NCBI RefSeq assembly: GCF_000025965.1
Contig: NC_006513.1
Coordinates: 2,728,001 to 2,792,000, forward strand
Direction: 5' to 3'
Length of the DNA: 64,000 nucleotides
Source of the DNA: Aromatoleum aromaticum EbN1
Lineage (GTDB): Bacteria; Pseudomonadota; Gammaproteobacteria; Burkholderiales; Rhodocyclaceae
Below the pieces are notes generated by a model. The model worked only from the letters and a program-made list of their open reading frames with translations, ran no database searches and was not told the origin of the DNA. Within the stretch, counting starts at the first letter, position 1. Each line of letters opens with the position of its first letter. The position numbers and the translations under genes were made by a program. Shown here one piece after another: positions 37,207 to 49,291 of this stretch.

Positions 37207-37221
37207 TGGCACAGCTCTTGC
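37207..37221 (+). promoter_or_regulatory. Sigma-54 (-24/-12) promoter of the Fap-like operon
   Basis: TGGCAC-AGCTC-TTGC: both core elements match the consensus exactly with the required 5-base spacing. Expected transcription start is near 37233, giving a leader of about 47 nt to ATG 37280, which has GAAGGGGA just before it. Confidence 0.85.
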
Positions 37222-37279: not shown

Positions 37280-38638
37280 ATGAGAAAAACATTGATTTCA
37301 GCCGCGATCGGACTTGCCTTTGGTCTTGCCGGGCAAGCTTGGGCGAATCCGGTGAATACGGTCACGGACACTACCGACGACAACACGCAAACCGCAACGG
37401 CGAATTCGACGCAGAGCGGACCCGGACCACAAGCGAACGAGTATTCGAACGCTACCGATAACACGGATAACCGCGTCGACAACTCGGACAATTCGGACAA
37501 CCGGACGGACAACAACTCCGACAATCGCGTCGACAACTCCGACAATTCCGACAATCGCGTCGACGACAACTCCGATAACCGCGTCGACAACTCGGACAAC
37601 TCGGACAACCATATCGACGACGACTCGGACAATCGCGTCGACAACACGAACAACTCCGATCAGAACAACGACAAGAGCGCCGGCGACAATCGCAACAACG
37701 ACGGCACGGCGCGCGCCGAGGGCTATGGCACGGCCGCGGCGAACAACGGCTCGACCTCGACGGCTACGTTCACCAACGCATTCAATACCACTGAGGTAAT
37801 GGCGATTGCGACCCTCAACGGCACGGTCAGCGGCGTGTCCGTGAGCAACGTCGGCAACATCGCGACAAACCACGGCAGCGCATACGGCGGCAATGGGGCG
37901 GCCGGCGGAGCCGGCAATGGCGGCGACGGGATCGGCGGGAATGCCAATGGCGCGGGCGGTGCCGGCGGAGCAGCCGCAGGTGGGGAAGGTGGCATGGGCA
38001 GCAATGGCGGGGACGGCGCCGGTGGGGCCGCCGCCAGTGGCACTGCGAACGGCGCCACCGGATCGACTGGCGGAAGTGCTTATAGCGCCAACGGGGATGG
38101 TGGCGACGGCAGCGGTGGTGGCGGCTCGGGCAGCGCCAGCAACGGTTCGAGCGGTGGCTCGGGCGTCCCGGGCGGGGAGGGTGGCCTGGCCGGAGGCGCG
38201 GGTAATTCGGGCGACTCGAGTGCGGCCGCCAATGGCGGCAGCGGGACCGGCGGCGCGGGCGGCACGGCCACCAACACAGCGGGCAACGGCGGCAACGGCG
38301 GCACGGCGACCAGCGGCGCTGCGACCGCCGGTAACGGCACTGCCGGCAACGGCGGCAACGGCGGCAACGGCGGCACCAACACGGCCGGCAACGGCGGTGA
38401 CGGCGGCACGAACACTGCGGGTGCCGGAACGGGCGGTGCGGGTACAGGCGGCGCCGGCGCTGCGGGCGGCGCGGGTGGCACGGCGTATGCCGATGCAGGC
38501 GCCTTCAACATGTCCAACACCGTCGGCGGCGGCAGCCTGGCCAACTCGGCCGGCATCTCGATGACCTCGCTGAACAGCGGCATCGGTGCACTCGTGCAGC
38601 AAAGCGCAAACGTTCAGGCCAACCTGACGGTGCGGTAA
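37280..38638 (+). CDS. Secreted Asn/Asp-repeat and Gly-rich protein, candidate amyloid-like fibre subunit
   Basis: 452 residues from ATG 37280 (MRKTLISAAIGLAFGLAGQA), with a Sec signal peptide cleaving after AWA. Residues 63-133 are four near-identical 18-residue units (DNRVDNSDNSDNRTDNNS type). Residues ~155-190 form a hydrophobic beta-prone island (NAFNTTEVMAIATLNGTVSG). Residues ~195-405 are extremely Gly/Ala/Asn/Ser/Thr-rich with GNGG-type repeats, recalling PGRS-type or fibre-forming sequences. The C-terminal ~43 residues return to a beta-prone, Asn/Ser/Gln-rich segment ending IGALVQQSANVQANLTVR. No cysteine occurs. First gene of the sigma-54 operon with a C39 peptidase. The parts suggest the exported structural subunit of a Fap-like functional amyloid or adhesin. 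I do not recognise a named family. Confidence 0.8.
   Translation: MRKTLISAAIGLAFGLAGQAWANPVNTVTDTTDDNTQTATANSTQSGPGPQANEYSNATDNTDNRVDNSDNSDNRTDNNSDNRVDNSDNSDNRVDDNSDNRVDNSDNSDNHIDDDSDNRVDNTNNSDQNNDKSAGDNRNNDGTARAEGYGTAAANNGSTSTATFTNAFNTTEVMAIATLNGTVSGVSVSNVGNIATNHGSAYGGNGAAGGAGNGGDGIGGNANGAGGAGGAAAGGEGGMGSNGGDGAGGAAASGTANGATGSTGGSAYSANGDGGDGSGGGGSGSASNGSSGGSGVPGGEGGLAGGAGNSGDSSAAANGGSGTGGAGGTATNTAGNGGNGGTATSGAATAGNGTAGNGGNGGNGGTNTAGNGGDGGTNTAGAGTGGAGTGGAGAAGGAGGTAYADAGAFNMSNTVGGGSLANSAGISMTSLNSGIGALVQQSANVQANLTVR
37466..37678 (+). repeat. In-frame tandem repeat, 54-bp unit, about four copies
   Basis: Codes for residues 63-133 of the fibre-candidate protein. Units read DNRVDNSDNSDNRTDNNS, then the same with RVDDNS, then with HIDDDS, then a degenerate copy DNRVDNTNNSDQNN. 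Within each unit a shorter DN-S/x-x rhythm recurs every three residues. Third-position differences between copies show it is maintained as protein, not a very recent DNA duplication. Confidence 0.88.
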
Positions 38639-38703: not shown

Positions 38704-39090
38704 ATGAGACAGGTACTGCCCCTGCTGACTCTCGGTATCGCGCTGGCCCTCCTGGCCGGCGGCACCCGCCTCGTGCATGCCGACGACGTCGTGATGCTCG
38801 GGGACGCGCAATCCGTCGCGCTGCAGCGCCCGGCGCAGAGGCTGATGGGCGGGCCTACGGTGGATGACGCGGTGCTTTCGGGGCAGCGCGGTGGCGCCGA
38901 TACGCACATCAGCGAAATACGCGCGGTCGGTTCGATGAGCGAAGTTTCCGTGTCGGATGCCGTCACCGGCTACAACCTGATCACCGAGGGCGCATTCGCC
39001 AATGCGAACATGATGGGAACCGTGGTCCAGAACAGCGGCAACGGCGTCATGATCCAGAACGCGGTAATCCTCAATCTCGAGGTGAAATGA
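38704..39090 (+). CDS. Small secreted protein, candidate minor fibre subunit
   Basis: 128 residues from ATG 38704 (MRQVLPLLTLGIALALLAGG, with GAGGAG upstream); an in-frame ATG 21 bp earlier is less likely. The signal peptide ends near LVHA-DD. The C-terminal 40 residues (NLITEGAFANANMMGTVVQN ... GVMIQNAVILNLEVK) share the TVVQNS-x5-IQ-x4-(I/L)N pattern with the protein encoded at 39803 (TVIQNS-x5-IQ-x4-IN). The ending resembles the Q/N-rich strands of minor curli/Fap-type subunits. Located 65 bp after the Gly-rich protein gene and 10 bp before the C39 peptidase gene, in one operon. No family name is known to me. Confidence 0.78.
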   Translation: MRQVLPLLTLGIALALLAGGTRLVHADDVVMLGDAQSVALQRPAQRLMGGPTVDDAVLSGQRGGADTHISEIRAVGSMSEVSVSDAVTGYNLITEGAFANANMMGTVVQNSGNGVMIQNAVILNLEVK

Positions 39091-39100
39091 CGAGGCCGTC

Positions 39101-39793
39101 ATGAAAGTCCGCCCGCTGTTCTTCATCGCGCTGCTGGGCGCGTCGGTGTGCCAGCCTGCGGCGGCGCAATCCGATCCGGCCAGGATTCTGGGGCCGTCCG
39201 GGAGCAGTTATGCAGTGCCCGTGACGAGCCTGAAAGGGGCGCGCTTCGTGTCGACGCTGCGTCAGCAATACGATTTCAGTTGCGGCTCCGCGGCGGTCGC
39301 GACGCTGCTCACGCATCATTACGACCGCAAGGTCGACGAAGTCGAGGTGTTCAAGCACATGTTCGAGCGCGGCGACCAGGCGAAGATCCGACGCGAGGGT
39401 TTTTCGATGCTCGACATGAAACTCTATCTCGACAGCAGCGGCTTTCGCGCCGAAGGCGTGCGCGCGTCGCTCGACCAGCTTTCCGCGGCACGTGTCCCGG
39501 CAATCGCGCTGATCAGGGAAAACGGCTACGCGCACTTCGTCGTGGTCAAGGGCCTGCGGGCGAAACGCGTCGTCATCGGCGACCCGGCAATGGGGACGCG
39601 CGTGCTCGATCGTACCGACTTCGAACGCTTCTGGACCAACGGCATCCTGCTCGTCATCAACGACCAGCCCGAGCGTGCCCGCTTCGACCGCGACGAGGAC
39701 TGGCGCGTCCGGCCTCCGGCGCCGATCGGGCAGGGGATCGGCGGCAATGCAACGGACGTCCTGCTGCTGCGCCGCGGGCCGATGGATTTTTGA
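39101..39793 (+). CDS. Secreted C39-type (bacteriocin-processing-like) cysteine peptidase, FapD-like
   Basis: 230 residues with signal peptide MKVRPLFFIALLGASVCQPA (cleavage near AAA-QS). The papain-like C39 domain has Gln55/56 and catalytic Cys61 in LRQQYDFSCGSAAVATLLTHHY, His145 in NGYAHFVVVKG and Asp161 in VVIGDPAMGTRVL. Unlike bacteriocin exporters it has no ABC or membrane domain, so it acts on its own in the periplasm. Stand-alone secreted C39 peptidases of this kind are the FapD component of functional-amyloid operons. Here the likely clients are the three secreted neighbours. No double-glycine leader cleavage sites were recognised in them, so the processing target is open. Confidence 0.85.
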   Translation: MKVRPLFFIALLGASVCQPAAAQSDPARILGPSGSSYAVPVTSLKGARFVSTLRQQYDFSCGSAAVATLLTHHYDRKVDEVEVFKHMFERGDQAKIRREGFSMLDMKLYLDSSGFRAEGVRASLDQLSAARVPAIALIRENGYAHFVVVKGLRAKRVVIGDPAMGTRVLDRTDFERFWTNGILLVINDQPERARFDRDEDWRVRPPAPIGQGIGGNATDVLLLRRGPMDF

Positions 39794-39802
39794 GTCTTTT
39801 CG

Positions 39803-40813
39803 ATGATCACTTTGCGGAACAAACGCGTGGCCGGGCTCATGGCGATGCTCGCCGTAGGTGCCGGAATCCCGGAAATTCCGCTCCGGTTGCTGGAGCATGC
39901 GTATGCGGCGGACGATGTGGTCGAAGGTTTCTTCCCTGCACTGTGTGCCGACGACATGCCGCCCGCCGAACTCCTCGCGCTCGCCGACTGGCCGCTGGAT
40001 GCCGAAGGGATCGGCTGCCGGCCCCACCCCGGGGTGCTCGACGCGCTCGCTGCGGCGTCGAACGACGGAAGTCGCCCGGGAACGATATCGCGGCGCCTGG
40101 CCGAATACGTCCTGTCGCTCGATGTTCCGCCTGGAGCCTCCGAAGAGAGTGCGCTGCCGGAGTCCCCGCGGGCCCCGCTCGCGAACGGCGCGAACGCAAG
40201 GCTTCCTGGTGCTGCGGCCGCCACGCCTTTCGCCGTGTCGGCGCCGGATTCGTACCAGTCCGTGCCGCTCGCCGCGCTCGGCGAACCGCTCCCGACGCCC
40301 GCGCCGTCAACCGTAGCGGCGCGCGACCCCGACCTGGAACCGGTCCCTCAGATACTCGTGGAAGGCCGCCCACCCGAGGGCGAGAAGATGCTGTTCTCCG
40401 GTCTGCTGGTCGATGACGACACGCTCGGTGGCCTGCGTGGCGGCTTCGAGACACCGGGCGGACTGGTGCTTTCGTTCGGTATCGAGCGGGTGGTCCTCAT
40501 CAACGGCGTGCTGTCGAGCACGACGACGCTGAACGTCGCCGATCTGAGCCAGCTCGCCGGCGGTGCGGCGGGCCTGCAGGCGCTGCCCGTCGGCACCAGC
40601 GTGGGCCTGATCCAGATCGGGGCGAACAACAGCTTCGATCCGGCCGTGCTCGCCTCCGGCTCCTTCGCGACGGTGATCCAGAACAGCCTCGACAATCAGA
40701 AGATTCAGACGGTCACGACGATCAATGCGCAGGCCAACAGCATGGATATGCTGCGCGCCCACCGACTCGGAGAGTCGTTGAGGAATGCTTTGAACAGTTC
40801 GTTGCTCAGGTGA
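39803..40813 (+). CDS. Secreted protein with C-terminal Q/N motif, candidate Fap-like accessory subunit
   Basis: 336 residues. A hydrophobic segment (residues 8-21) and the sequence HAYA-AD near residue 36 indicate export, although the segment between them is longer than a usual signal peptide. Residues ~110-190 are Pro/Ala-rich and likely disordered. A folded region from ~195 contains LGGLRGGFETPGGLVLSFGIERVVLING. Residues 285-312 carry the TVIQNS-x5-IQ-x4-IN motif shared with the small protein at 38704. Last gene of the operon, 9 bp after the C39 peptidase gene. A strong hairpin follows. Comparable in position to FapE, but I see no clear homology to it. Confidence 0.75.
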   Translation: MITLRNKRVAGLMAMLAVGAGIPEIPLRLLEHAYAADDVVEGFFPALCADDMPPAELLALADWPLDAEGIGCRPHPGVLDALAAASNDGSRPGTISRRLAEYVLSLDVPPGASEESALPESPRAPLANGANARLPGAAAATPFAVSAPDSYQSVPLAALGEPLPTPAPSTVAARDPDLEPVPQILVEGRPPEGEKMLFSGLLVDDDTLGGLRGGFETPGGLVLSFGIERVVLINGVLSSTTTLNVADLSQLAGGAAGLQALPVGTSVGLIQIGANNSFDPAVLASGSFATVIQNSLDNQKIQTVTTINAQANSMDMLRAHRLGESLRNALNSSLLR

Positions 40814-40894: not shown

Positions 40895-42229
40895 TTACAG
40901 CGTGATCGGCATCCGCAAGGTCAGTTGCAGGTCCGGTGTGTCCTCGGTGAGACCGGCGCCGACCGACAGGTTCAAAGTCCGGTTCGGCGCCATGCGGTAG
41001 GAGTAGCCGAGCAGCAGGGTGCCGAGCTGAACGCGCACTGAAGTCGCTGCGGTCTCGCCGTTCTGCTTGACCTTTCCGACCGACAGGTGGTCGTAGCCGA
41101 TGCTGAACGAGGAGCGCTCGTTCAGTGCGAGACCCATGCCGAAGTTGAAACCGAAAGCGCCGCCCGGCTGGACTTCGCCGAGCTCGATGTCGCCCTCGTT
41201 CGTCTTCTGCTTCACGTTGTCGCGCTTGAAGCTGTATTGGTAGCTGACGCCGCCGAAAAAGACCACGGGGTCGGAAGGAATCAGCACCGTCAGGCCCGGC
41301 TGGAGAGAGTAGAACCCCGAGCCGGTCGGAATTTCGGTCTGAAGACCCACTCCCCCGGTCGTCGATCTGATCGTCCTGTCGATTTCGACTTCGAACGGAT
41401 CCGTTCCGGTGCGCGACTTGAAGCGCAGCGACGCGATGTAGTACGGCCGGTCGGCCCCGCCGTCGTTGAGCTGGTACCGGCCGGTCAACTCGATGTCGCC
41501 GATGTCGTCCCCGTCCGTGTCGAATACCTCGGGATTGGCACTTCCTACGGCCACTTCCCGGCTCACGCTCGAATCCCAGCGATAGACGTACGGAATTTTC
41601 GCCTCGAGTTCGAAGCGGTTCGTAATGCCGCGTCGCACGGTCAGCGCCGCGGTCAGTGAGTTGCTCTTGACCTCCCGAACATCGATCAGACCGATCAGGA
41701 GTGCGGGGATGATCGTGTAGCCGATCAGTGCAATGCGATTGCTCGAGGAATACGCATACTGCAGCGAAGGCTCGAGGATCCACGTCCCTCGCGGCGTCAG
41801 CACGCCCGGCTGTTCGAAGATCGGTGCGACCGGGGGCGGGCGGTTGTCGGTGCGGGTCGGCGCCTCGCCGACAGGACGCTGCACCGGTGCCTGGGCGACC
41901 TGTTGCGCGGGCGTGCTGCCTGCCGGGGGCGGCGGCGCGGCGACCGTGGCGGGGATGGCGGGCGCGGCCGGCGGAGAACCTCGGCCGCTGATGCCGCTGA
42001 TGTCCAGCGCACGACGCATGTCGTGCAGTACTGCCTGCTGGCGCGACAGATCCTGCTGCAGCGATTCGATCTGCCGGCTCTGTTCCTCGATCCGCTGTCT
42101 AAGTGTATCGACGCTGCCGTCGAAAGCCGCGTCATCGGCAGCGTGGAGGAACGGGCTCGATGCGGCCAGCACCAGCCCGGCCACGCTGCAGCCCACGACG
42201 GCGCCGGACCGGCGTCCCGAGGTTTTCAT
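40895..42229 (-). CDS. Outer-membrane beta-barrel with N-terminal coiled coil, FapF-like exporter
   Basis: 444 residues. A signal peptide ends near FLHA-ADD (residue 30). A coiled coil spans ~38-75 (DTLRQRIEEQSRQIESLQQD...), followed by a Pro/Ala-rich linker to ~140. A beta-barrel domain of about 12 strands starts near 148 (GTWILEPSLQYAYSSSNRIA) and ends with a short terminal strand (LQLTLRMPITL). The strand patterns ITNRFELEAKIPYVYR, DIELTGRYQL, SSDPVVFFGGVSYQYSF-like and LALNERSSFSIGYDH match the FapF type of outer-membrane amyloid exporter. There, the coiled coil trimerises and gates the pore in the periplasm. Downstream of the VpsR-like activator gene by 49 bp on the same strand and convergent with the secreted subunits. 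Confidence 0.8.
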   Translation of the reverse strand: MKTSGRRSGAVVGCSVAGLVLAASSPFLHAADDAAFDGSVDTLRQRIEEQSRQIESLQQDLSRQQAVLHDMRRALDISGISGRGSPPAAPAIPATVAAPPPPAGSTPAQQVAQAPVQRPVGEAPTRTDNRPPPVAPIFEQPGVLTPRGTWILEPSLQYAYSSSNRIALIGYTIIPALLIGLIDVREVKSNSLTAALTVRRGITNRFELEAKIPYVYRWDSSVSREVAVGSANPEVFDTDGDDIGDIELTGRYQLNDGGADRPYYIASLRFKSRTGTDPFEVEIDRTIRSTTGGVGLQTEIPTGSGFYSLQPGLTVLIPSDPVVFFGGVSYQYSFKRDNVKQKTNEGDIELGEVQPGGAFGFNFGMGLALNERSSFSIGYDHLSVGKVKQNGETAATSVRVQLGTLLLGYSYRMAPNRTLNLSVGAGLTEDTPDLQLTLRMPITL

Positions 42230-42278: not shown

Positions 42279-43619
42279 CTAAAGAACGATTTTCAGGCGG
42301 TCCATCATGCGATACAGCGTCACGCGCGAAATGCCGAGTTGCCGCGCCACTTCCGAAACGTTGTTGCGGTACTTGTGGAGACTGCTGACGATGACTTCCT
42401 TTTCGACTGTCGCACGCACTTCGTCGAGCGTCGGGCCGACGCCGGACATCTCCGGGGGGGCGATGCCCAGGTCGGCGGCGGCGATGAGCTTGGACTCGGT
42501 CATGATCATGGCGTACTGAACGCGGTTGATCAGTTCGCGCACGTTGCCCGGCCACGGGTATTCCCACATCGCATGGACCGCCTCCGAGCTGAAGCCTTTC
42601 ACCTGCGAACTCTTCTGGTGCCGGTTCTGGGCGAAGATCGAATTGGCGAGCAACGGAATGTCGCTGGTGCGTTCGCGCAGGGGCGGCACCTTGAGATGCA
42701 GGACGTTGAGCCGATAGAAAAGATCTTCGCGAAACCGCCCCTGCTCGACGGCGCGCTCGAGGTCGACGTGCGTCGCCGCGATCACCCGCACGTCGACGCG
42801 GATGCGCTGCGTGGAGCCGACGCGCACGATCGTCTTTTCCTGCAGGAAGCGCAGCAGGTTCACCTGCAGATCGAGGGGCAGGTCGCCGATTTCGTCGAGG
42901 AACAGGATGCCGCGATGCGCGGCTTCGATGTTTCCGATCTTGCGCTGGTGGGCTCCTGTGAACGCGCCGCGCTCGTGGCCGAAAAGCTCGGACTGGATGA
43001 GATTCGGCGCAATCGCACCGCAGTTCATCGTGACGAACGGCCAATCCGCCCGGGCGGAATAGCGGTGGATCGCGTGTGCCACGAGTTCCTTGCCGGTGCC
43101 CGATTCGCCGCCGATCAGCACCGGCGCGTCGACACCGACGATCTTGTCGATCTGGCTGAAGAGCTGAAGCATCCTGGCGTGGCGTCCGACCATGCCGAAC
43201 CGGCTGTCGCCTTGCCCGGTTCGAGTCGAGCAGTCCTCGATGCTCTGCAGCATCAATGCCTTGCCGTAAGCATGGCCCAGCGTCACCATCAGCCGCTCGC
43301 GATCGAGCGGCAGCGTGTGAAAGTCGTGGAAATTGCGCAGCACCATCGGCCCGTGCTGCTGGTTGCGCAGCAGATCCTTGCCGAGGATCGCGATCCATTC
43401 GACGTCGTTGGAGATCAACGCTTCCATTTCGCGCGGCGGCCAGGGGTGGGTCGAACTGAAAGCCACCAGCCCGACCAGCGGCGAGCCGGCGGTCAACGCC
43501 TTGCGGGCCTCGTCGATGGATGAAACCACCTGAAGTTCCCAGCCGGTCAAGCCCATGCTCCTCAGGTCGGCGGCCACATCGCCCGTCTGGTCCAGCAGCA
43601 AGCCTTTACGTTTCGTCAT
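42279..43619 (-). CDS. Sigma-54-type activator with VpsR-like receiver-like domain
   Basis: 446 residues, the length of Vibrio VpsR. The first ~125 residues form a receiver-like domain without the usual acidic pocket (KGLLLDQTGDVAADLRSMGL ... VEWIAILGKDL), as in VpsR, so phosphorylation is not expected in the normal way. The AAA+ domain follows with Walker A GGESGTGKE (170-178), GAFTGA in FGHERGAFTGAHQ (required for sigma-54 contact), and a C-terminal Fis-like HTH (NVSEVARQLGISRVTLYRMM). VpsR binds c-di-GMP and controls biofilm genes; a similar role here over the Fap-like operon (sigma-54 promoter 37207-37221) is inference. Unlike VpsR itself, which works with sigma-70, this one keeps GAFTGA. 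Confidence 0.85.
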   Translation of the reverse strand: MTKRKGLLLDQTGDVAADLRSMGLTGWELQVVSSIDEARKALTAGSPLVGLVAFSSTHPWPPREMEALISNDVEWIAILGKDLLRNQQHGPMVLRNFHDFHTLPLDRERLMVTLGHAYGKALMLQSIEDCSTRTGQGDSRFGMVGRHARMLQLFSQIDKIVGVDAPVLIGGESGTGKELVAHAIHRYSARADWPFVTMNCGAIAPNLIQSELFGHERGAFTGAHQRKIGNIEAAHRGILFLDEIGDLPLDLQVNLLRFLQEKTIVRVGSTQRIRVDVRVIAATHVDLERAVEQGRFREDLFYRLNVLHLKVPPLRERTSDIPLLANSIFAQNRHQKSSQVKGFSSEAVHAMWEYPWPGNVRELINRVQYAMIMTESKLIAAADLGIAPPEMSGVGPTLDEVRATVEKEVIVSSLHKYRNNVSEVARQLGISRVTLYRMMDRLKIVL

Positions 43620-44721
43620 CAGGGGTGTCCCTTTCCGCTCCGGACATAACGGCCTTCATTTTCTTTCGTGTCGAATCGAAATATCCCTGTCGTTCGTCCC
43701 AATGCATTTCAGTCCCGGAATGAACCTGCCCTACGAAGCAAGAACCATGCGAATAACGAATGAATCGCATTCTCCGCTCAGTGTGCAGACTTCATCGAGC
43801 CGGGCCGAACATGTCGAATGCAAGCGAGGAATATTCCGCGTCAATCGGAATCGCTGAGCGAAGCAGCCGACTCATACCGAATCAATATTTGTTGATGCCT
43901 GAGCGGCCACGCCTGAAACGACCGCTTCGGCATACCTTGCCTGGGGGTTTCAGGCTTCAGAGACGCCGGTAGAAAGCACCCGAATACGCCCCAGTTTGGG
44001 GAAGTGCGAACGACGAAACTGCGCATGTCGATGCAGCGGGAAACGCAACAAAAGTGCGCCCAGCGTGAGTTCCAGGAAATCGGCGCGCGTTTCCTGTCGC
44101 ATTTTTCACCCTGGCCGGCTACCCGAATTTGATCGTGACGAAAATACATACGACATGAGTTCTCACGACGCGCTGTCCGGCGACAGCGCCCCGGGTGTAA
44201 GAAATGCCGACAGCGGCTCGAGCCGCCAGGCCGAAGAAATTGCGGCGGCTGCAGGATCGGCCCCCAGCGTGAGCGTACGAGGGAGACCGCTGATGCGATC
44301 AGCCTGGTTCAAAGAGTAGGGCCCGACGAAGTGCCACGACGCCGCTTGACGCGCCGGAAAAACGGAGATCGGTGTAAAGAGTCCTGACGACGCATGGTGG
44401 AGGACCTCTCGGCGTCAGTCGCGATAGCGGCTCCGGCAACGGCTCCGCGCCGGAGCCGCACGGGGTTGGCGACAGAGGGAGCGCTCGATCCCTGGCACCC
44501 GTTCGTCCTCGCGAACCATATTCCCCCCCCCGCAGCGCGGTCAGTCCCGGCCTACTTCACGCTTGTCGGCCGCTGCGTGCACGACGTTCGATTTCCGTAC
44601 GTTCCTCCGTTTTTCGATCGGCCGTTTCGATCGGTCGCGCTTGTTGCGACGCAATGACAAATATTTTGAAAGCCTGTCTTCGTCTGTTTTTCACTGTTGC
44701 TGCATCGCAGCGGAAGAAGGA
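43620..44721. other. 1.1-kb intergenic region between the VpsR-like gene and acxA
   Basis: No convincing gene. A 107-codon frame at 43996-44319 is Ser/Arg-rich with no recognisable domain and I reject it. Three strong dyads are present: GCCTGAAAC/GTTTCAGGC (43911-43919 and 43947-43955), CAGGAAA/TTTCCTG (44073-44079 and 44090-44096), and an 11-bp repeat GCGGCTCCGGC/GCCGGAGCCGC (44427-44437 and 44449-44459). The last ~140 bp hold the acx operator and lead to the sigma-54 promoter. Part of the region is less GC-rich than the flanking genes. A structured leader or an sRNA cannot be excluded. Confidence 0.45.
44585..44601. promoter_or_regulatory. Candidate activator-binding site for acx (CGTTCG-N5-CGTACG)
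   Basis: A 17-bp imperfect dyad, CGTTCGATTTCCGTACG, located 121 bp upstream of the acxA -24 element. The same 17 bp with one substitution (G for T at position 14) occurs at 60005-60021, 117 bp upstream of the -24 element assigned to the sigma-54 activator gene. Shared sequence and spacing make it a probable enhancer site for that activator. Confidence 0.7.
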
Positions 44722-44736
44722 TGGCACGGACAGTGC
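44722..44736 (+). promoter_or_regulatory. Sigma-54 (-24/-12) promoter of the acx operon
   Basis: TGGCAC-GGACA-GTGC followed by A. The -24 element is consensus; the -12 element has one mismatch (GTGC), as in the promoter at 7266-7281. Expected start near 44748, about 52 nt before the acxA ATG at 44800. Confidence 0.82.
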
Positions 44737-44799
44737 AATAGGACCTCCGGGGGCCGGAAGAATCGGCGACTCGCTAATCAAGAGGAGATGGAGATAAAC

Positions 44800-46950
44800 A
44801 TGGAAGCCCTACAGGCATCACAAGTACAGGTCATGGGCATCGATGCCGGCGGCACGATGACCGACACGTTCTTCGTCCGCGAAGACGGGCGCTTCGTAGT
44901 CGGCAAGGCACAGAGCAATCCGGCCGACGAGTCCCTCGCAATTTTCAACTCGTCGCAGGACGCGCTGGCCCATTGGGAGCGCGACGTCGATGAGGTCTAT
45001 CCGGAACTCGTCACCTGCGTCTATTCGGGCACTGCGATGCTGAACCGCATCCTGATGCGCAAGGGCCTCGACGTCGGGCTGATCTGCAACCGCGGCTTCG
45101 AGCAGATCCATTCGATGGGCCGCGCGCTGCAGAGCTACCTCGGCTATGCGCTGGAAGACCGCATCCATCTCAACACGCACCGCTACGACGAGCCGCTGGT
45201 GCCAGTGTCCCGCACGCGTGGCGTCGCCGAGCGCACCGACGTGCAGGGCAAGGTCGTGATCCCGCTGCGCGAGGACGAAGTGCGCCAAGCCACCCGCGAG
45301 CTGGTCGAGGCCGGGTCCCAGGCGGTCGTGATCTGCCTGCTGCAGTCGCACAAGAACGAGACCAGCGAGCAGCGCGCCCGCGACGTGGTCAAGGACGAGC
45401 TGAAGAAGCTCAAGGTGGACATTCCGGTGTTCGCGTCGGTGGATTACTACCCGTCGCGCAAGGAAAGCCACCGGATGAACACCACGATTCTCGAAGCGTA
45501 TGGTGCCGAGCCGTCGCGCCAGACGCTGAAGAAAGTCAGCGACCGCTTCAAGAAGCACGGCGCGAAGTTCGATCTGCGCGTCATGGCGACGCATGGCGGC
45601 ACGATCAGCTGGAAGGCGAAGGAACTGGCGCGCACGATCGTCTCGGGCCCAATCGGCGGCGTCATCGGCTCGAAGCTCCTCGGCGAGTACCTGGGTGACG
45701 AGAACATCGCGTGCTCGGACATCGGCGGCACGTCGTTCGACGTCGCGCTGATCACCAAGGGCAGCTTCGCGATCAAGTCCGACCCGGACATGGCCCGCCT
45801 GGTGCTGTCGCTGCCGCTCGTCGCGATGGACTCGGTCGGCGCGGGCGCGGGCAGCTTCGTGCGCCTCGATCCGTACAGCAAGTCGATCAAGCTCGGCCCG
45901 GACAGCGCCGGCTACCGCGTCGGCACATGCTGGCCGGAAAGCGGCCTCGACACGGTATCGGTGTCCGACTGCCACGTCGTGCTCGGTTACCTCAACCCGG
46001 ACAACTTCCTCGGCGGCGCGATCAAGCTCGATGTGCAGCGCGCCCGCGACCACATCAAGGTGCAGATCGCCGACCCACTCGGCCTGTCGGTCGAGGACGC
46101 CGCGTCCGGCGTCATCGAGCTGCTGGATCTGACGCTGTCCGAGTACCTGCGCGCCAACATCAGCGCGAAGGGCTACAACCCGGCCGAATTCACGTGCTTC
46201 TCGTACGGCGGCGCGGGTCCGGTGCATACCTACGGCTACACCGAAGGCGTCGGCTTCAAGGACGTCGTCGTGCCCGCGTGGGCGGCGGGCTTCTCGGCGT
46301 TCGGCTGCGCGTGCGCGGACTTCGAGTATCGCTACGACAAGTCGGTCGACCTCGGGGTGGCGCAGTTCGCGAGCGACGAGGTGAAGGCGGCGGCCTGCGT
46401 GAGCCTGCAGGCGGCGTGGGAAGAGCTGGCGGTCAAGGTCATCGACGAATTCATCATCAACGGCTACAAGCCGGAGGACGTGCTGCTGATCCCTGGCTAC
46501 AAGATGCAGTACATGGGGCAGCTGAACGACCTCGAAATCGTGTCGCCGGTATCCACGGCGGCGACGGCGGGCGACTGGAACCAGATCATCGAGGCCTTCG
46601 AGACGACCTACAGCCGCGTCTATGCCAACTCGGCGCGCTCGCCGGAACTGGGTTTCTCGATCACTGGCGCGATCCTGCGCGGCATGGTCGTGACGCAGAA
46701 GCCGGTGCTGCCGGAAGACGCCGACTGCGGCCCGACGCCGCCGAAGGAAGCCTATCTCGGCACTCGTCCGTTCTATCGCCACAAGCGCTGGGTCGAGGCC
46801 ACGCTGTGGAAGATGGAATCGCTCAAGGCCGGCAATCACATCGTCGGTCCCGCGATCATCGAGTCCGACGCGACGACCTTCGTCGTGCCCGACGGTTTCG
46901 AAACGACGGTCGACAAGCACCGCCTGTTCCATCTCAAAGAAGTGAAGTAA
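44800..46950 (+). CDS. acxA: Acetone carboxylase, beta subunit
   Basis: 716 residues from ATG 44800 (MEALQASQVQVMGIDAGGTMTDTFF), chosen over ATG 44788 because GGAG lies 6 bases before it. It is a HyuA-type ASKHA ATPase: phosphate-1 loop GIDAGGTMTDTFFV, second loop SDIGGTSFDVALIT (near residue 305), and YGGAGPVHTYGYTEG. Length and sequence match AcxA rather than hydantoinase or acetophenone carboxylase. In the alpha2-beta2-gamma2 enzyme, beta handles ATP-dependent activation of bicarbonate and acetone, which are joined to make acetoacetate. First gene of the sigma-54 operon. Confidence 0.95.
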   Translation: MEALQASQVQVMGIDAGGTMTDTFFVREDGRFVVGKAQSNPADESLAIFNSSQDALAHWERDVDEVYPELVTCVYSGTAMLNRILMRKGLDVGLICNRGFEQIHSMGRALQSYLGYALEDRIHLNTHRYDEPLVPVSRTRGVAERTDVQGKVVIPLREDEVRQATRELVEAGSQAVVICLLQSHKNETSEQRARDVVKDELKKLKVDIPVFASVDYYPSRKESHRMNTTILEAYGAEPSRQTLKKVSDRFKKHGAKFDLRVMATHGGTISWKAKELARTIVSGPIGGVIGSKLLGEYLGDENIACSDIGGTSFDVALITKGSFAIKSDPDMARLVLSLPLVAMDSVGAGAGSFVRLDPYSKSIKLGPDSAGYRVGTCWPESGLDTVSVSDCHVVLGYLNPDNFLGGAIKLDVQRARDHIKVQIADPLGLSVEDAASGVIELLDLTLSEYLRANISAKGYNPAEFTCFSYGGAGPVHTYGYTEGVGFKDVVVPAWAAGFSAFGCACADFEYRYDKSVDLGVAQFASDEVKAAACVSLQAAWEELAVKVIDEFIINGYKPEDVLLIPGYKMQYMGQLNDLEIVSPVSTAATAGDWNQIIEAFETTYSRVYANSARSPELGFSITGAILRGMVVTQKPVLPEDADCGPTPPKEAYLGTRPFYRHKRWVEATLWKMESLKAGNHIVGPAIIESDATTFVVPDGFETTVDKHRLFHLKEVK

Positions 46951-46966
46951 GGAGAGGAGACCCATC

Positions 46967-49291
46967 ATGAATATGCTGACAAACAAGGAAGTTGGCTTTG
47001 CCGACCTGCTGAAGAACGGCCAGACGCTCAAGCAGTTCCGCGACGGCATCATCGAGCGCACGAAAGCCAGTGGCTGCTACAACGGCATCGAGAAGCTGGA
47101 GTTCCGCGACAGCGATCCGATCGGCTACGAGAAGCTGTTCTCCAAGCTGCGCGGCGGGCTGGTGCATGCCCGCGAGACCGCGAAGAAGATTGCTGCGAGC
47201 CCGATCGTCGAGCAGGAAGGCGAGCTGTGCTTCACGCTATACAACGCCGCGGGCGACTGCGTGCTGACCTCGACCGGCATCATCATCCACGTCGGCACGA
47301 TGGGCGCGGCGATCAAGTACATGATCGAGAACAACTGGGAAGGCAACCCCGGCATCAATCCCCGCGACATGTTCACGACCAACGACTGCGCGATCGGCAA
47401 CGTGCACCCGTGCGATATCGCGACGATCGTTCCGATCTTCTGGGAAGGCAAGCTGATCGGCTGGGTCGGCGGCGTCACGCACGTCATCGACACCGGCGCG
47501 GTGACGCCGGGCTCGATGTCCACCGGCCAGACGCAGCGCTTCGGCGACGGCTACATGATCACCTGCCGCAAGACCGGGGTGAATGACGAGCCGCTGCGCG
47601 ACTGGCTGCACGAGTCGCAGCGTTCGGTGCGCACGCCGAAGTACTGGATCCTCGACGAGAAGACCCGCATCGCCGGCTGCCACATGATCCGCGAGCTGGT
47701 CGAGGAAGTGATCCGCGCCGACGGCCTCGATGCTTATGAAAAGTTCGGCTTCGAAGTCATCGAGGAAGGCCGCCGCGGTCTGATGAGCCGCGTCAAGGCG
47801 ATGACACTGCCGGGCAAGTACCGCAAGGTGTCGTTCGTCGACGTGCCCTTCAAGCACGAGGACGTGCAGGTGTCGAACGCCTTCGCCAAGCTCGACTCGA
47901 TCATGCACTCGCCGGTCGAGATGACGATCAAGCCGGACGGCAAGTGGCGGCTCGACTTCGAGGGCGCGAGCCGCTGGGGCTGGCATACCTTCAACGCGCA
48001 CCAGGTGGCCTTCACCTCGGGCATCTGGGTGATGATGTCGCAGACCCTGGTGCCGACCCAGCGCATCAACGACGGCGCCTACTTCGCGACCGAGTTCAAG
48101 CTGCCGAAGGGCACCTGGTGCAACCCGGACGACCGCCGCACCGGCCACGCCTACGCCTGGCACTTCCTGGTCTCCGGCTGGGCAGCGCTGTGGCGCGGCC
48201 TCTCGCAGTCGTACTTCAGCCGCGGCTATCTCGAAGAGGTCAACGCCGGCAACGCGAACACCTCGAACTGGCTGCAGGGTGGCGGCATCAACCAGGACGG
48301 CGAGATCCACGCGGTCAACAGCTTCGAGGCGAGCTCCTGCGGCACCGGGGCCTGCGCGGTGAAGGACGGCCTGAACCACGCTGCCGCGATCTGGAACCCC
48401 GAAGGCGACATGGGCGACATCGAGATCTGGGAGATGGCCGAGCCGCTCCTCTACCTCGGCCGCAACGTCAAGGCCAACTCGGGCGGCTACGGCAAGTACC
48501 GCGGCGGTTGCGGTTTCGAGACGCTGCGCATGGTGTGGAACGCCCAGGACTGGACGATGTTCTTCATGGGCAACGGCTACATGAACAGCGACTGGGGGAT
48601 GATGGGCGGCTACCCGTCGGCGACCGGTTACCGCTTCGAAGCGCACAAGACGGGTCTCGAGCGCCGCATCGCCAACGGCGAAAGCCTGCCGCTGGGCGGA
48701 GACATCGACCCCGCGGCGCCGACCTACGAGCGCAACATCGACGCGACGTCCGTGGTCAAGCGCGACAAGCAGTGCATGACCACCGAGGACTGCTACGAGA
48801 ACCACGACCTGTACCTGAACTACCTGCGCGGTGGCCCGGGCTTCGGCGATCCGATCGATCGCGAGCCGAAGGCGATCGAGAACGACCTGAACCAGAAGTT
48901 CCTGCTGCCGGAGTATGCGGAGAAGGTCTATGGCGCTGTCATCACTCAGGACGCGAAGGGCGTGTTCACGGTGGATGCAGCGAAAACGGCTGCCCGTCGG
49001 GCCGAGGTGCGCAAGGAGCGGCTCGCCCGCGCCGTGCCCACGCATGAGTGGATGAAGCAGGAGCGCGAACGGATCCTCATCAAGGACGCGGCCGTTCAAG
49101 TGCAGCACATGTTCGCGACCAGCTTCGGGTTGTCAGAGAAATTCACGAAAGAGTTCAAGGCGTTCTGGAGCCTGCCGGACGACTGGCAGCTGCTGGAGTC
49201 CGAGCTCAACGTTCCGACCTACGGTTCGAAGCACCGCATGGACCTGTCGCTGCTGCCCGACGTCACCACCGTCGTCCAGGTCGAAGAGTAA
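46967..49291 (+). CDS. acxB: Acetone carboxylase, alpha subunit
   Basis: 774 residues (MNMLTNKEVGFADLLKNGQT), the HyuB-family subunit, close to the 776 of characterised AcxB. The segment TTNDCAIGNVHPCDIATIVP with His147 and Asp150, and VGGVTHVIDTGAVTPGSMST with His172, fits the Mn-binding site where acetone enolate is carboxylated (assignment by analogy with known AcxB). Large parts (WHTFNAHQVAFTSGIWVMMSQ, YFATEFKLPKGTWCNPDDRR) are characteristic of AcxB. Starts 16 bp after acxA, with GGAGAGGAGACC upstream. Confidence 0.95.
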   Translation: MNMLTNKEVGFADLLKNGQTLKQFRDGIIERTKASGCYNGIEKLEFRDSDPIGYEKLFSKLRGGLVHARETAKKIAASPIVEQEGELCFTLYNAAGDCVLTSTGIIIHVGTMGAAIKYMIENNWEGNPGINPRDMFTTNDCAIGNVHPCDIATIVPIFWEGKLIGWVGGVTHVIDTGAVTPGSMSTGQTQRFGDGYMITCRKTGVNDEPLRDWLHESQRSVRTPKYWILDEKTRIAGCHMIRELVEEVIRADGLDAYEKFGFEVIEEGRRGLMSRVKAMTLPGKYRKVSFVDVPFKHEDVQVSNAFAKLDSIMHSPVEMTIKPDGKWRLDFEGASRWGWHTFNAHQVAFTSGIWVMMSQTLVPTQRINDGAYFATEFKLPKGTWCNPDDRRTGHAYAWHFLVSGWAALWRGLSQSYFSRGYLEEVNAGNANTSNWLQGGGINQDGEIHAVNSFEASSCGTGACAVKDGLNHAAAIWNPEGDMGDIEIWEMAEPLLYLGRNVKANSGGYGKYRGGCGFETLRMVWNAQDWTMFFMGNGYMNSDWGMMGGYPSATGYRFEAHKTGLERRIANGESLPLGGDIDPAAPTYERNIDATSVVKRDKQCMTTEDCYENHDLYLNYLRGGPGFGDPIDREPKAIENDLNQKFLLPEYAEKVYGAVITQDAKGVFTVDAAKTAARRAEVRKERLARAVPTHEWMKQERERILIKDAAVQVQHMFATSFGLSEKFTKEFKAFWSLPDDWQLLESELNVPTYGSKHRMDLSLLPDVTTVVQVEE

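Follow-up and report, generated by a model that had tools for sequence, protein, structure and literature searches.

The window, which is the whole analysed stretch of 64,000 nucleotides on contig 1 of the Aromatoleum aromaticum EbN1 genome (searched whole; 4,727,255 bases in three contigs), was found to hold a row of six genes. On the forward strand, those for a fibre candidate (P0006), a small secreted protein (P0001), a C39-family peptidase (P0002), and a larger secreted protein (P0003) lie in this order, followed on the reverse strand by those for an outer-membrane barrel (P0004) and a regulator (P0005). The features, in window positions, are as follows.

37207..37221, + strand: exact match to the sigma-54 promoter consensus TGGCAC-N5-TTGC, 58 bases 5' of the P0006 start codon, upstream of the operon
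37280..38638, + strand: P0006, Gly/Asn-rich secreted fibre candidate of 452 aa, from its translation and positional homologues
38513..38635, + strand: C-terminal repeat-like segment of P0006, residues 412-452, matched by the mature profile of the small protein
38704..39090, + strand: P0001, small secreted protein of 128 aa
38860..38895, + strand: P0001 leader site V53-G64, VDDAVLSGQRGG; predicted first mature residue A65
39019..39075, + strand: P0001 C-terminal motif, residues 106-124
39101..39793, + strand: P0002, C39-family cysteine peptidase with a Sec-type N-terminus (Pfam PF03412, E=5.7e-25; NCBIfam FapD NF058616)
39803..40813, + strand: P0003, FapE-like secreted protein of 336 aa
40409..40444, + strand: P0003 leader site V203-G214, VDDDTLGGLRGG; predicted first mature residue F215
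40670..40726, + strand: P0003 C-terminal motif, residues 290-308, modelled as two strands
40895..42229, - strand: P0004, FapF-like outer-membrane barrel (NCBIfam FapF NF058560, FilC NF050079)
42279..43619, - strand: P0005, VpsR-domain sigma-54 activator, likely the regulator (Pfam PF00158 and PF20161)

When P0003 was searched against 150 genomes of the same family, 14 were matched, the window's own included, and the same six kinds of gene were clustered in all 14 of these Rhodocyclaceae loci, each with a P0006 homologue at the equivalent position and a P0005-type gene. P0006 itself matched no Pfam or NCBIfam model at E<=1. The sigma-54 site was the single match to the consensus in the 64-kb window (0.09 expected by chance), and this perfect site shares the window with the gene of the sigma-54 activator P0005 beside the operon. 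At 44563-49291, the window also contains two large ORFs which we take to resemble acetone/acetophenone carboxylase-type subunits. A second C39-type match in the same genome (locus L225; contig 1, 975653-976048, reverse strand) lies within a 1064-residue open frame, perhaps that of a type I exporter.

A wider set of loci was obtained with a C39 peptidase as bait, the best 80 of 585 being named; near relatives thus dominate counts over these 80 loci, and the nearest named ones are from A. anaerobium and A. toluolicum. A protein of the P0001 type (hereafter small) lay upstream of the peptidase in 76 of the 80 loci and one of the P0003 type (big) downstream in 77, the remaining three being L171, L190, and L173, the last of which is cut by a contig end. 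Fibre-like ORFs, picked by composition, were present upstream in 65 of 76 loci; in L025, L027, L030, L031, and L032, two tandem fibre genes take the place of one. For the profiles, hand-trimmed alignments were made of the window's big protein with 52 of 64 references (A4) and of its small protein with 63 of 71 (A5). A5 lacks five small proteins whose site is degenerate (L153, L176, L178, L189, and L191) and thus favours GG, as do its conservation line and the small-big profile scores for the leader alone and for the whole length, none of which were relied on.

The starting point was a C-terminal motif which the sequence-only reading had noticed in P0001 and P0003, and which was confirmed at residues 106-124 of the former (TVVQNSGNGVMIQNAVILN) and 290-308 of the latter (TVIQNSLDNQKIQTVTTIN), together with the related ALVQQSANVQANL from residue 437 of 452 at the end of P0006. 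In its literal form, the pattern was rare among homologues (8 of 76 small and 4 of 77 big proteins); its core, hydrophobic-hydrophobic-Q-N within the last 75 residues, was present in 76 of 76 and 76 of 77, respectively, and Q[NT]xG occurred in the tails of 62 of the 65 fibre-like ORFs. The motif was hence kept in close homologues that keep the operon, and it was found again in secreted genes next to FapF-like barrels.

As single sequences, the mature parts of P0001 and P0003 gave a score that was equalled in 15 of 1000 shuffles, so that the pairwise similarity of the tails is modest when taken alone. Family profiles went well beyond chance: comparison of the post-RGG parts of small and big proteins scored 34.0, where 60 column shuffles reached at most 20.3, and that of the small protein with the fibre C-terminus scored 33.8 (maximum of 23.6 in 60 shuffles); the big protein against the fibre C-terminus, at 11.7, was not above chance (shuffled maximum 16.3). 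Among the six window proteins, the small-protein mature profile matched residues 412-445 of P0006 (E=4.4e-6) and 284-310 of P0003 (E=8.9e-5), and a small-protein profile run over the window's whole genome had just two matches at E<=1, P0001 (3e-27) and the C-terminus of the fibre (0.04). A neighbouring secreted protein in locus L090 was also matched by this profile (1.7e-7) and appeared by eye to consist of four copies of the tail-type unit. Based on this four-copy protein and the small-fibre profile match, the small protein may be about one fibre repeat carried behind a leader, a reading that goes a step beyond the match itself.

For P0003, a structure model of residues 203-336 (mean pLDDT 70) comprised a low-confidence leader helix (model residues 3-10), five strands (20-31, 34-43, 64-70, 86-94, and 97-109), of which the last two fall on the motif, and a helix at the C-terminus; it had no Foldseek match at E<=0.001, and VIA-align against the PDB returned nothing at Z>=5. 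The P0001-family profile found nothing in the PDB at E<=10. A model of P0001 residues 53-128 gave no fold (mean pLDDT 51; unstructured except for a short helix at the leader) and was set aside.

Apart from the tail, P0001 and P0003 had been taken to be unlike each other, which proved incorrect: their best common segment lies upstream and reads VDDxxLxGxRGG. In BLASTP, the best segment between the two proteins was that around VDDAVLSGQRGG and VDDDTLGGLRGG (E=5e-4), and in an ungapped scan the leader parts ranked top with a score equalled in none of 1000 shuffles. This segment is spaced like a C39 double-glycine leader, with a hydrophobic residue at -12, L at -7, and G at both -2 and -1, and it lies behind a Sec-type N-terminus in the proteins that flank a periplasmic-type C39 peptidase. 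In a study on C39 exporters (PMC6959990), the characterised leaders are given as L(-12)XXXE(-8)L(-7)XXXXG(-2)G(-1), with a helix at -10 to -4, positions -12, -7, and -4 important for binding, and -4 tuning specificity. Hydrophobic residues at -12 and -7 and glycines at -2 and -1 were present in both window proteins (V203, L208, G213, and G214 of P0003; V53, L58, G63, and G64 of P0001), and -8 was T in P0003 and V in P0001 rather than E.

The leader was invariant among big proteins. With a profile built only from the part downstream of the site, LxxxRGG was found in all 77 named ones and in all 12 of a second, class-wide sample. In a class-wide scan of 369 genomes, the P0003-domain profile matched 13 genomes including the window's own, the other 12 each having a C39 match nearby on the same contig; the FapD model matched 43 of the 369 at 1e-20. 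The exact leader-spacing pattern occurred in 64 of the 77 big proteins, where shuffled sequences would give 2.7; among background ORFs it was seen in 73 of 3141. In the site table, big sites were chosen by [LMIVF]xxxRGG and small sites by [LMIVF]x4GG, which fixes -7, -2, and -1 by construction; at positions free of this choice, the 104 big proteins were hydrophobic at -12 in 94% and at -4 in 76%, with E at -8 in 15. The big protein of L088, in which another RGG was picked, was omitted from the table; it does have LAELRGG. Small proteins were more variable: among the 84 with a GG site only 42% were hydrophobic at -4, and no GG site was found in 19 of 103. Lxxx[RKSHTA]GG was present in 68 of the 76 named small proteins and in 2 of 12 class-wide (downstream-only profile), the class-wide ones having RGR, RAK, RGT, and similar instead of GG. 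The small protein thus may not be a substrate everywhere, considering the missing site in those 19 of 103 and in 10 of the 12.

The two sides of the site also differed in length. Before it, big precursors have 37-685 residues (upper bounds, taken from the longest ORF), and the mature part is near 121 residues (quartiles 120 and 125, range 97-229). Identities to P0003 in the pro-part and the mature part were 80/201 and 64/117 for L022, 67/180 and 64/119 for L024, 53/183 and 60/121 for L028, 50/116 and 80/122 for L021, and 192/214 and 114/122 for the near relative L020. At the distant loci L092, L171, and L190, the big protein no longer has the exact QN tail, and the leader (L092 and L190) and the neighbouring genes stay. 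In the two of these that are alphaproteobacterial and where both profiles fail, leader-like sequences were present in the gene before the peptidase of L171 (VDAAQMGELRGR) and in the gene after that of L190 (VSLAEMSDLRGG). Since the leader outlasts the QN tail at such loci, the tail cannot be the sole tie of the subunits to the machinery.

In the peptidase itself, Q55, C61, H145, and D161 were invariant in 27 aligned homologues of P0002, and the family profile retrieved C39 peptidase domains from the PDB, 6mpz and 4ry2 among them. The window proteins share with the substrates of C39 peptidase-containing exporters (PCAT) the leader spacing at -12, -7, -4, -2, and -1; unlike those exporters, P0002 stands alone with a Sec-type N-terminus and no ABC transporter domain, and the proteins proposed as its substrates are Sec precursors in which the spacer is long.

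We then compared the locus with the functional amyloid system Fap. P0002 matched the FapD model at 6e-42 (143 bits; NCBIfam cut-off 330) and P0004 the FapF model at 1.8e-48 (165 bits; cut-off 700), and P0005-like sigma-54 regulators were present in 12 of the 15 Fap loci examined. In contrast, the window proteins matched no FapA, FapB, FapC, or FapE model at E<=1, P0006 and P0001 among them as regards the Fap subunit models; the fibre candidate is a Gly/Asn-rich protein, and P0001 is without a counterpart in the classical six-gene operon. The FapE model found nothing in the window's genome at 1e-10. Small-protein profiles scored marginally against FapB and FapC (15.5 and 18.0 versus shuffled maxima of 14.1 and 13.6 in 40), and against the pooled FapB and FapC profile 15.9 versus a shuffled maximum of 16.9; similarity of the fibre or big tails to the FapB/FapC profiles was not supported. 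The window system probably works like Fap and, as FapB and FapC were looked for and not found, is not filed as Fap. In some Fap loci, we noticed an extra small gene near fapB (L100 10749-11168; L101 3864-4199; L102 10267-10581; L105 9479-9847; L108 5530-5868) that has a leader-like site (e.g., IADEELSSMRG or LNDDQLGQVRG) and a C-terminal ILWDE or TLWDE, possibly a counterpart of P0001 outside the six-gene scheme.

The closest tie to Fap was found in FapE. The P0003-type profile (A4) scored 39.2 against a FapE profile (maximum of 19.6 in 50 shuffles), the match lying on the leader and the first mature residues; FapE beyond its first 60 alignment columns scored 14.7, within the shuffles. In 14 of 15 true Fap loci, the gene after fapD was FapE, with a site ending in RG[RK][FY] in place of the window's RGG; FapE was not found in L110. 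In these 14, which were chosen by RG[RK][FY] alone, -12 and -7 were hydrophobic in all and -8 was E in 10. A scan of 398 genomes gave 20 with a FapE match, seven of them above the FapE cut-off. Over 31 distinct FapE sequences, from which L220 was excluded for a stop inside its frame, -12 was hydrophobic (31), -8 was E (26), -7 was L or M (31), -2 was G (31), and -1 was R or K (31), of which only the count at -8 is free of the picking pattern, which fixes -12, -7, -4, -2, and -1. On these alignments, true FapE bears a putative site homologous to the P0003 leader and ending in RG[RK].

This site bears on what has been described for FapD. According to PMC5557850, the active-site Cys of FapD is needed for secretion of FapC, the target of FapD was unclear because no canonical C39 sequence was apparent in the Fap proteins, FapF was proposed as a further target, and FapE alone among the Fap proteins gave no MS peptides in its first ~70 residues; a 2025 review goes no further than naming FapE and FapF as presumed substrates of FapD (PMC12822426). 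Cleavage of FapE at RG[RK] fits these MS data in direction, which do not fix the bond because, in the seven FapE sequences above the cut-off, the start of the pattern lies at index 28-66 when counted along the longest ORF. No report of a double-glycine-type leader for FapD/FapE was found in the open PubMed Central literature (main texts), that on Fap in Azoarcus, Thauera, and Burkholderia included.

A second related system is Fil (NCBIfam 'putative pilus system' FilA-C; Pfam DUF6160). P0002 matched FilB (111 bits), P0004 matched FilC NF050079 (74 bits), and the FilA-like subunits of L097 bear the leader-like MTDTAMSNATGQ after the signal peptide. In Fil, however, it is the subunits that bear the leader-like site, which ends in GQ or AG; neither the small nor the big profile has a match at Fil loci at E<=0.01, and the window proteins match neither DUF6160 nor FilA at E<=1. 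In ten C39-barrel loci that have neither the small nor the big protein (L094 being excluded for a broken peptidase frame), signal peptides were called crudely, and leader-like sites came after them in 16 of the 50 ORFs on the same strand versus 2 of the 58 on the opposite strand, counts that are not independent because the ORFs overlap. By inspection, the sites of L096, L097, L098, L115, L118, and L119 look convincing and those of L095, L099, L116, and L117 do not; one tested subunit of the MTDTAMSNATGQ type was FilA/DUF6160-like. Secreted subunits in tandem, in which the signal peptide is followed by a site of the kind LSDADMDGVTAG or MTDTAMSNATGQ, occur at L119 (4199-5347), L115 (4731-5978), and L097 (7360-11691). 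In open PubMed Central main texts, we found nothing on FilB/FilF and nothing relevant on FilA/DUF6160.

Curli (CsgA/CsgB, CsgF), which to our knowledge uses a different pore and has no C39 peptidase, has in common with the window system its Q/N-rich repeats and the concept of both an anchor and a nucleator; P0001, P0003, and P0006 showed no Pfam match to the curlin repeat at E<=1. FapE has been likened to CsgF (PMC12822426).

All these observations led us to an explanation in two modules, which as a whole, judged from sequence, we consider probable. P0001 and P0003 would be Sec-exported precursors built alike: behind the signal peptide comes a spacer that can have any length, then the C39-type double-glycine leader site (RGG, with L at -7 and a hydrophobic residue at -12), and last a mature part ending in a beta-prone Q/N motif. 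The upstream module most likely marks both proteins for the neighbouring peptidase: periplasmic P0002 would bind the leader and cut after RGG, and the freed mature parts would leave through the barrel P0004 together with the fibre protein P0006. The downstream module most likely places them in the fibre; outside the cell, the small protein, with its mature part similar to a single fibre repeat, would join or start the fibre, and FapE-like P0003 may act as its anchor or initiator. A point that counts against this scheme is the R or K at -1 of FapE, a poor fit for the narrow GG cleft reported for C39 exporters (PMC6959990). So do the scarcity of E at -8 in window-type proteins, the low share of hydrophobic -4 residues and the missing GG sites among small proteins, the big-fibre profile score within chance, the marginal small-protein scores against FapB and FapC, and structure models that were unstructured (P0001) or middling without a convincing PDB match (P0003).

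Other accounts of the tail have to be weighed against this two-module scheme. That the tails came to resemble each other by convergence, as beta-prone sequence rich in Q, N, S, and V, rather than by common descent is somewhat unlikely: composition is biased in all three proteins, shuffles reached the pairwise score 15 times in 1000, and the big and fibre tails do not match each other, but composition-keeping column shuffles were exceeded and the small profile matched only two places genome-wide at E<=1. The sequence-only reading had held the tail to be an incorporation, nucleation, or export signal. Of these roles, incorporation or nucleation is favoured by the likeness of the small and fibre profiles, and export is better assigned to the RGG leader, given that a C39-type double-glycine site adjoins a C39 peptidase; the motif may therefore be read as a fibre-type repeat or docking strand with a predicted role in the fibre. 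Against the near-complete retention of its core in small and big proteins and the relation of the small tail to the fibre end stand the diverged big-protein tails of L092, L171, and L190, where leader (L092, L190) and neighbours remain, and the FapE comparison beyond the first 60 columns, which stayed within shuffles; we thus regard it as quite improbable that the tail alone serves as the export or incorporation signal.

The peptidase could also be involved differently. RGG might never be cut and instead form a structural turn where a folded domain begins, or serve to dock a C39 protein that acts as a chaperone, in keeping with the RG[RK] that FapE has in place of GG at the same position (-2 G and -1 R/K in 31 of 31), with the RAK or RGT of some small proteins, and with the inactive, substrate-binding C39-like domains mentioned in PMC5557850. 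Nevertheless, the catalytic residues are invariant in the 27 aligned peptidases, the FapD Cys mutant loses secretion (PMC5557850), and the stretch before the leader may be of any length and the stretch after it may not, all of which make an uncut RGG unlikely. Processing of the barrel P0004 or of the fibre, instead of P0001 and P0003, would accord with the proposal in PMC5557850 of FapF as a FapD target; P0006, however, shows by eye no leader-like site after its signal sequence, and the leader sites sit in the two genes on either side of the peptidase, so that this alternative seems very unlikely. Cleavage of both P0001 and P0003 after RGG hence remained the preferred reading.

The leader site suggests a target for the FapD-type protease. 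FapD is essential for secretion of the Fap amyloid and its target has been reported to be unclear (PMC5557850); the relatives in the window type display a near-textbook site, LxxLRGG, and their alignment to FapE names one exact candidate bond there. In addition, a Fap-like fibre system without FapB or FapC recognisable by the models used, present in many Burkholderiales and Xanthomonadales relatives among the best 80 of 585 loci, would be missed by searches that require the Fap repeats. More broadly, and tentatively, stand-alone periplasmic C39 peptidases and FapF-like barrels may form one wide export route, whose cargo bears a Sec signal peptide and then a double-glycine-type leader as in bacteriocin export, located on FapE in Fap, on the FapE-like and small proteins in the window type, and on the subunits themselves in Fil-like loci (LSDADMDGVTAG, MTDTAMSNATGQ); removal of this leader in the periplasm would license passage through the outer membrane.
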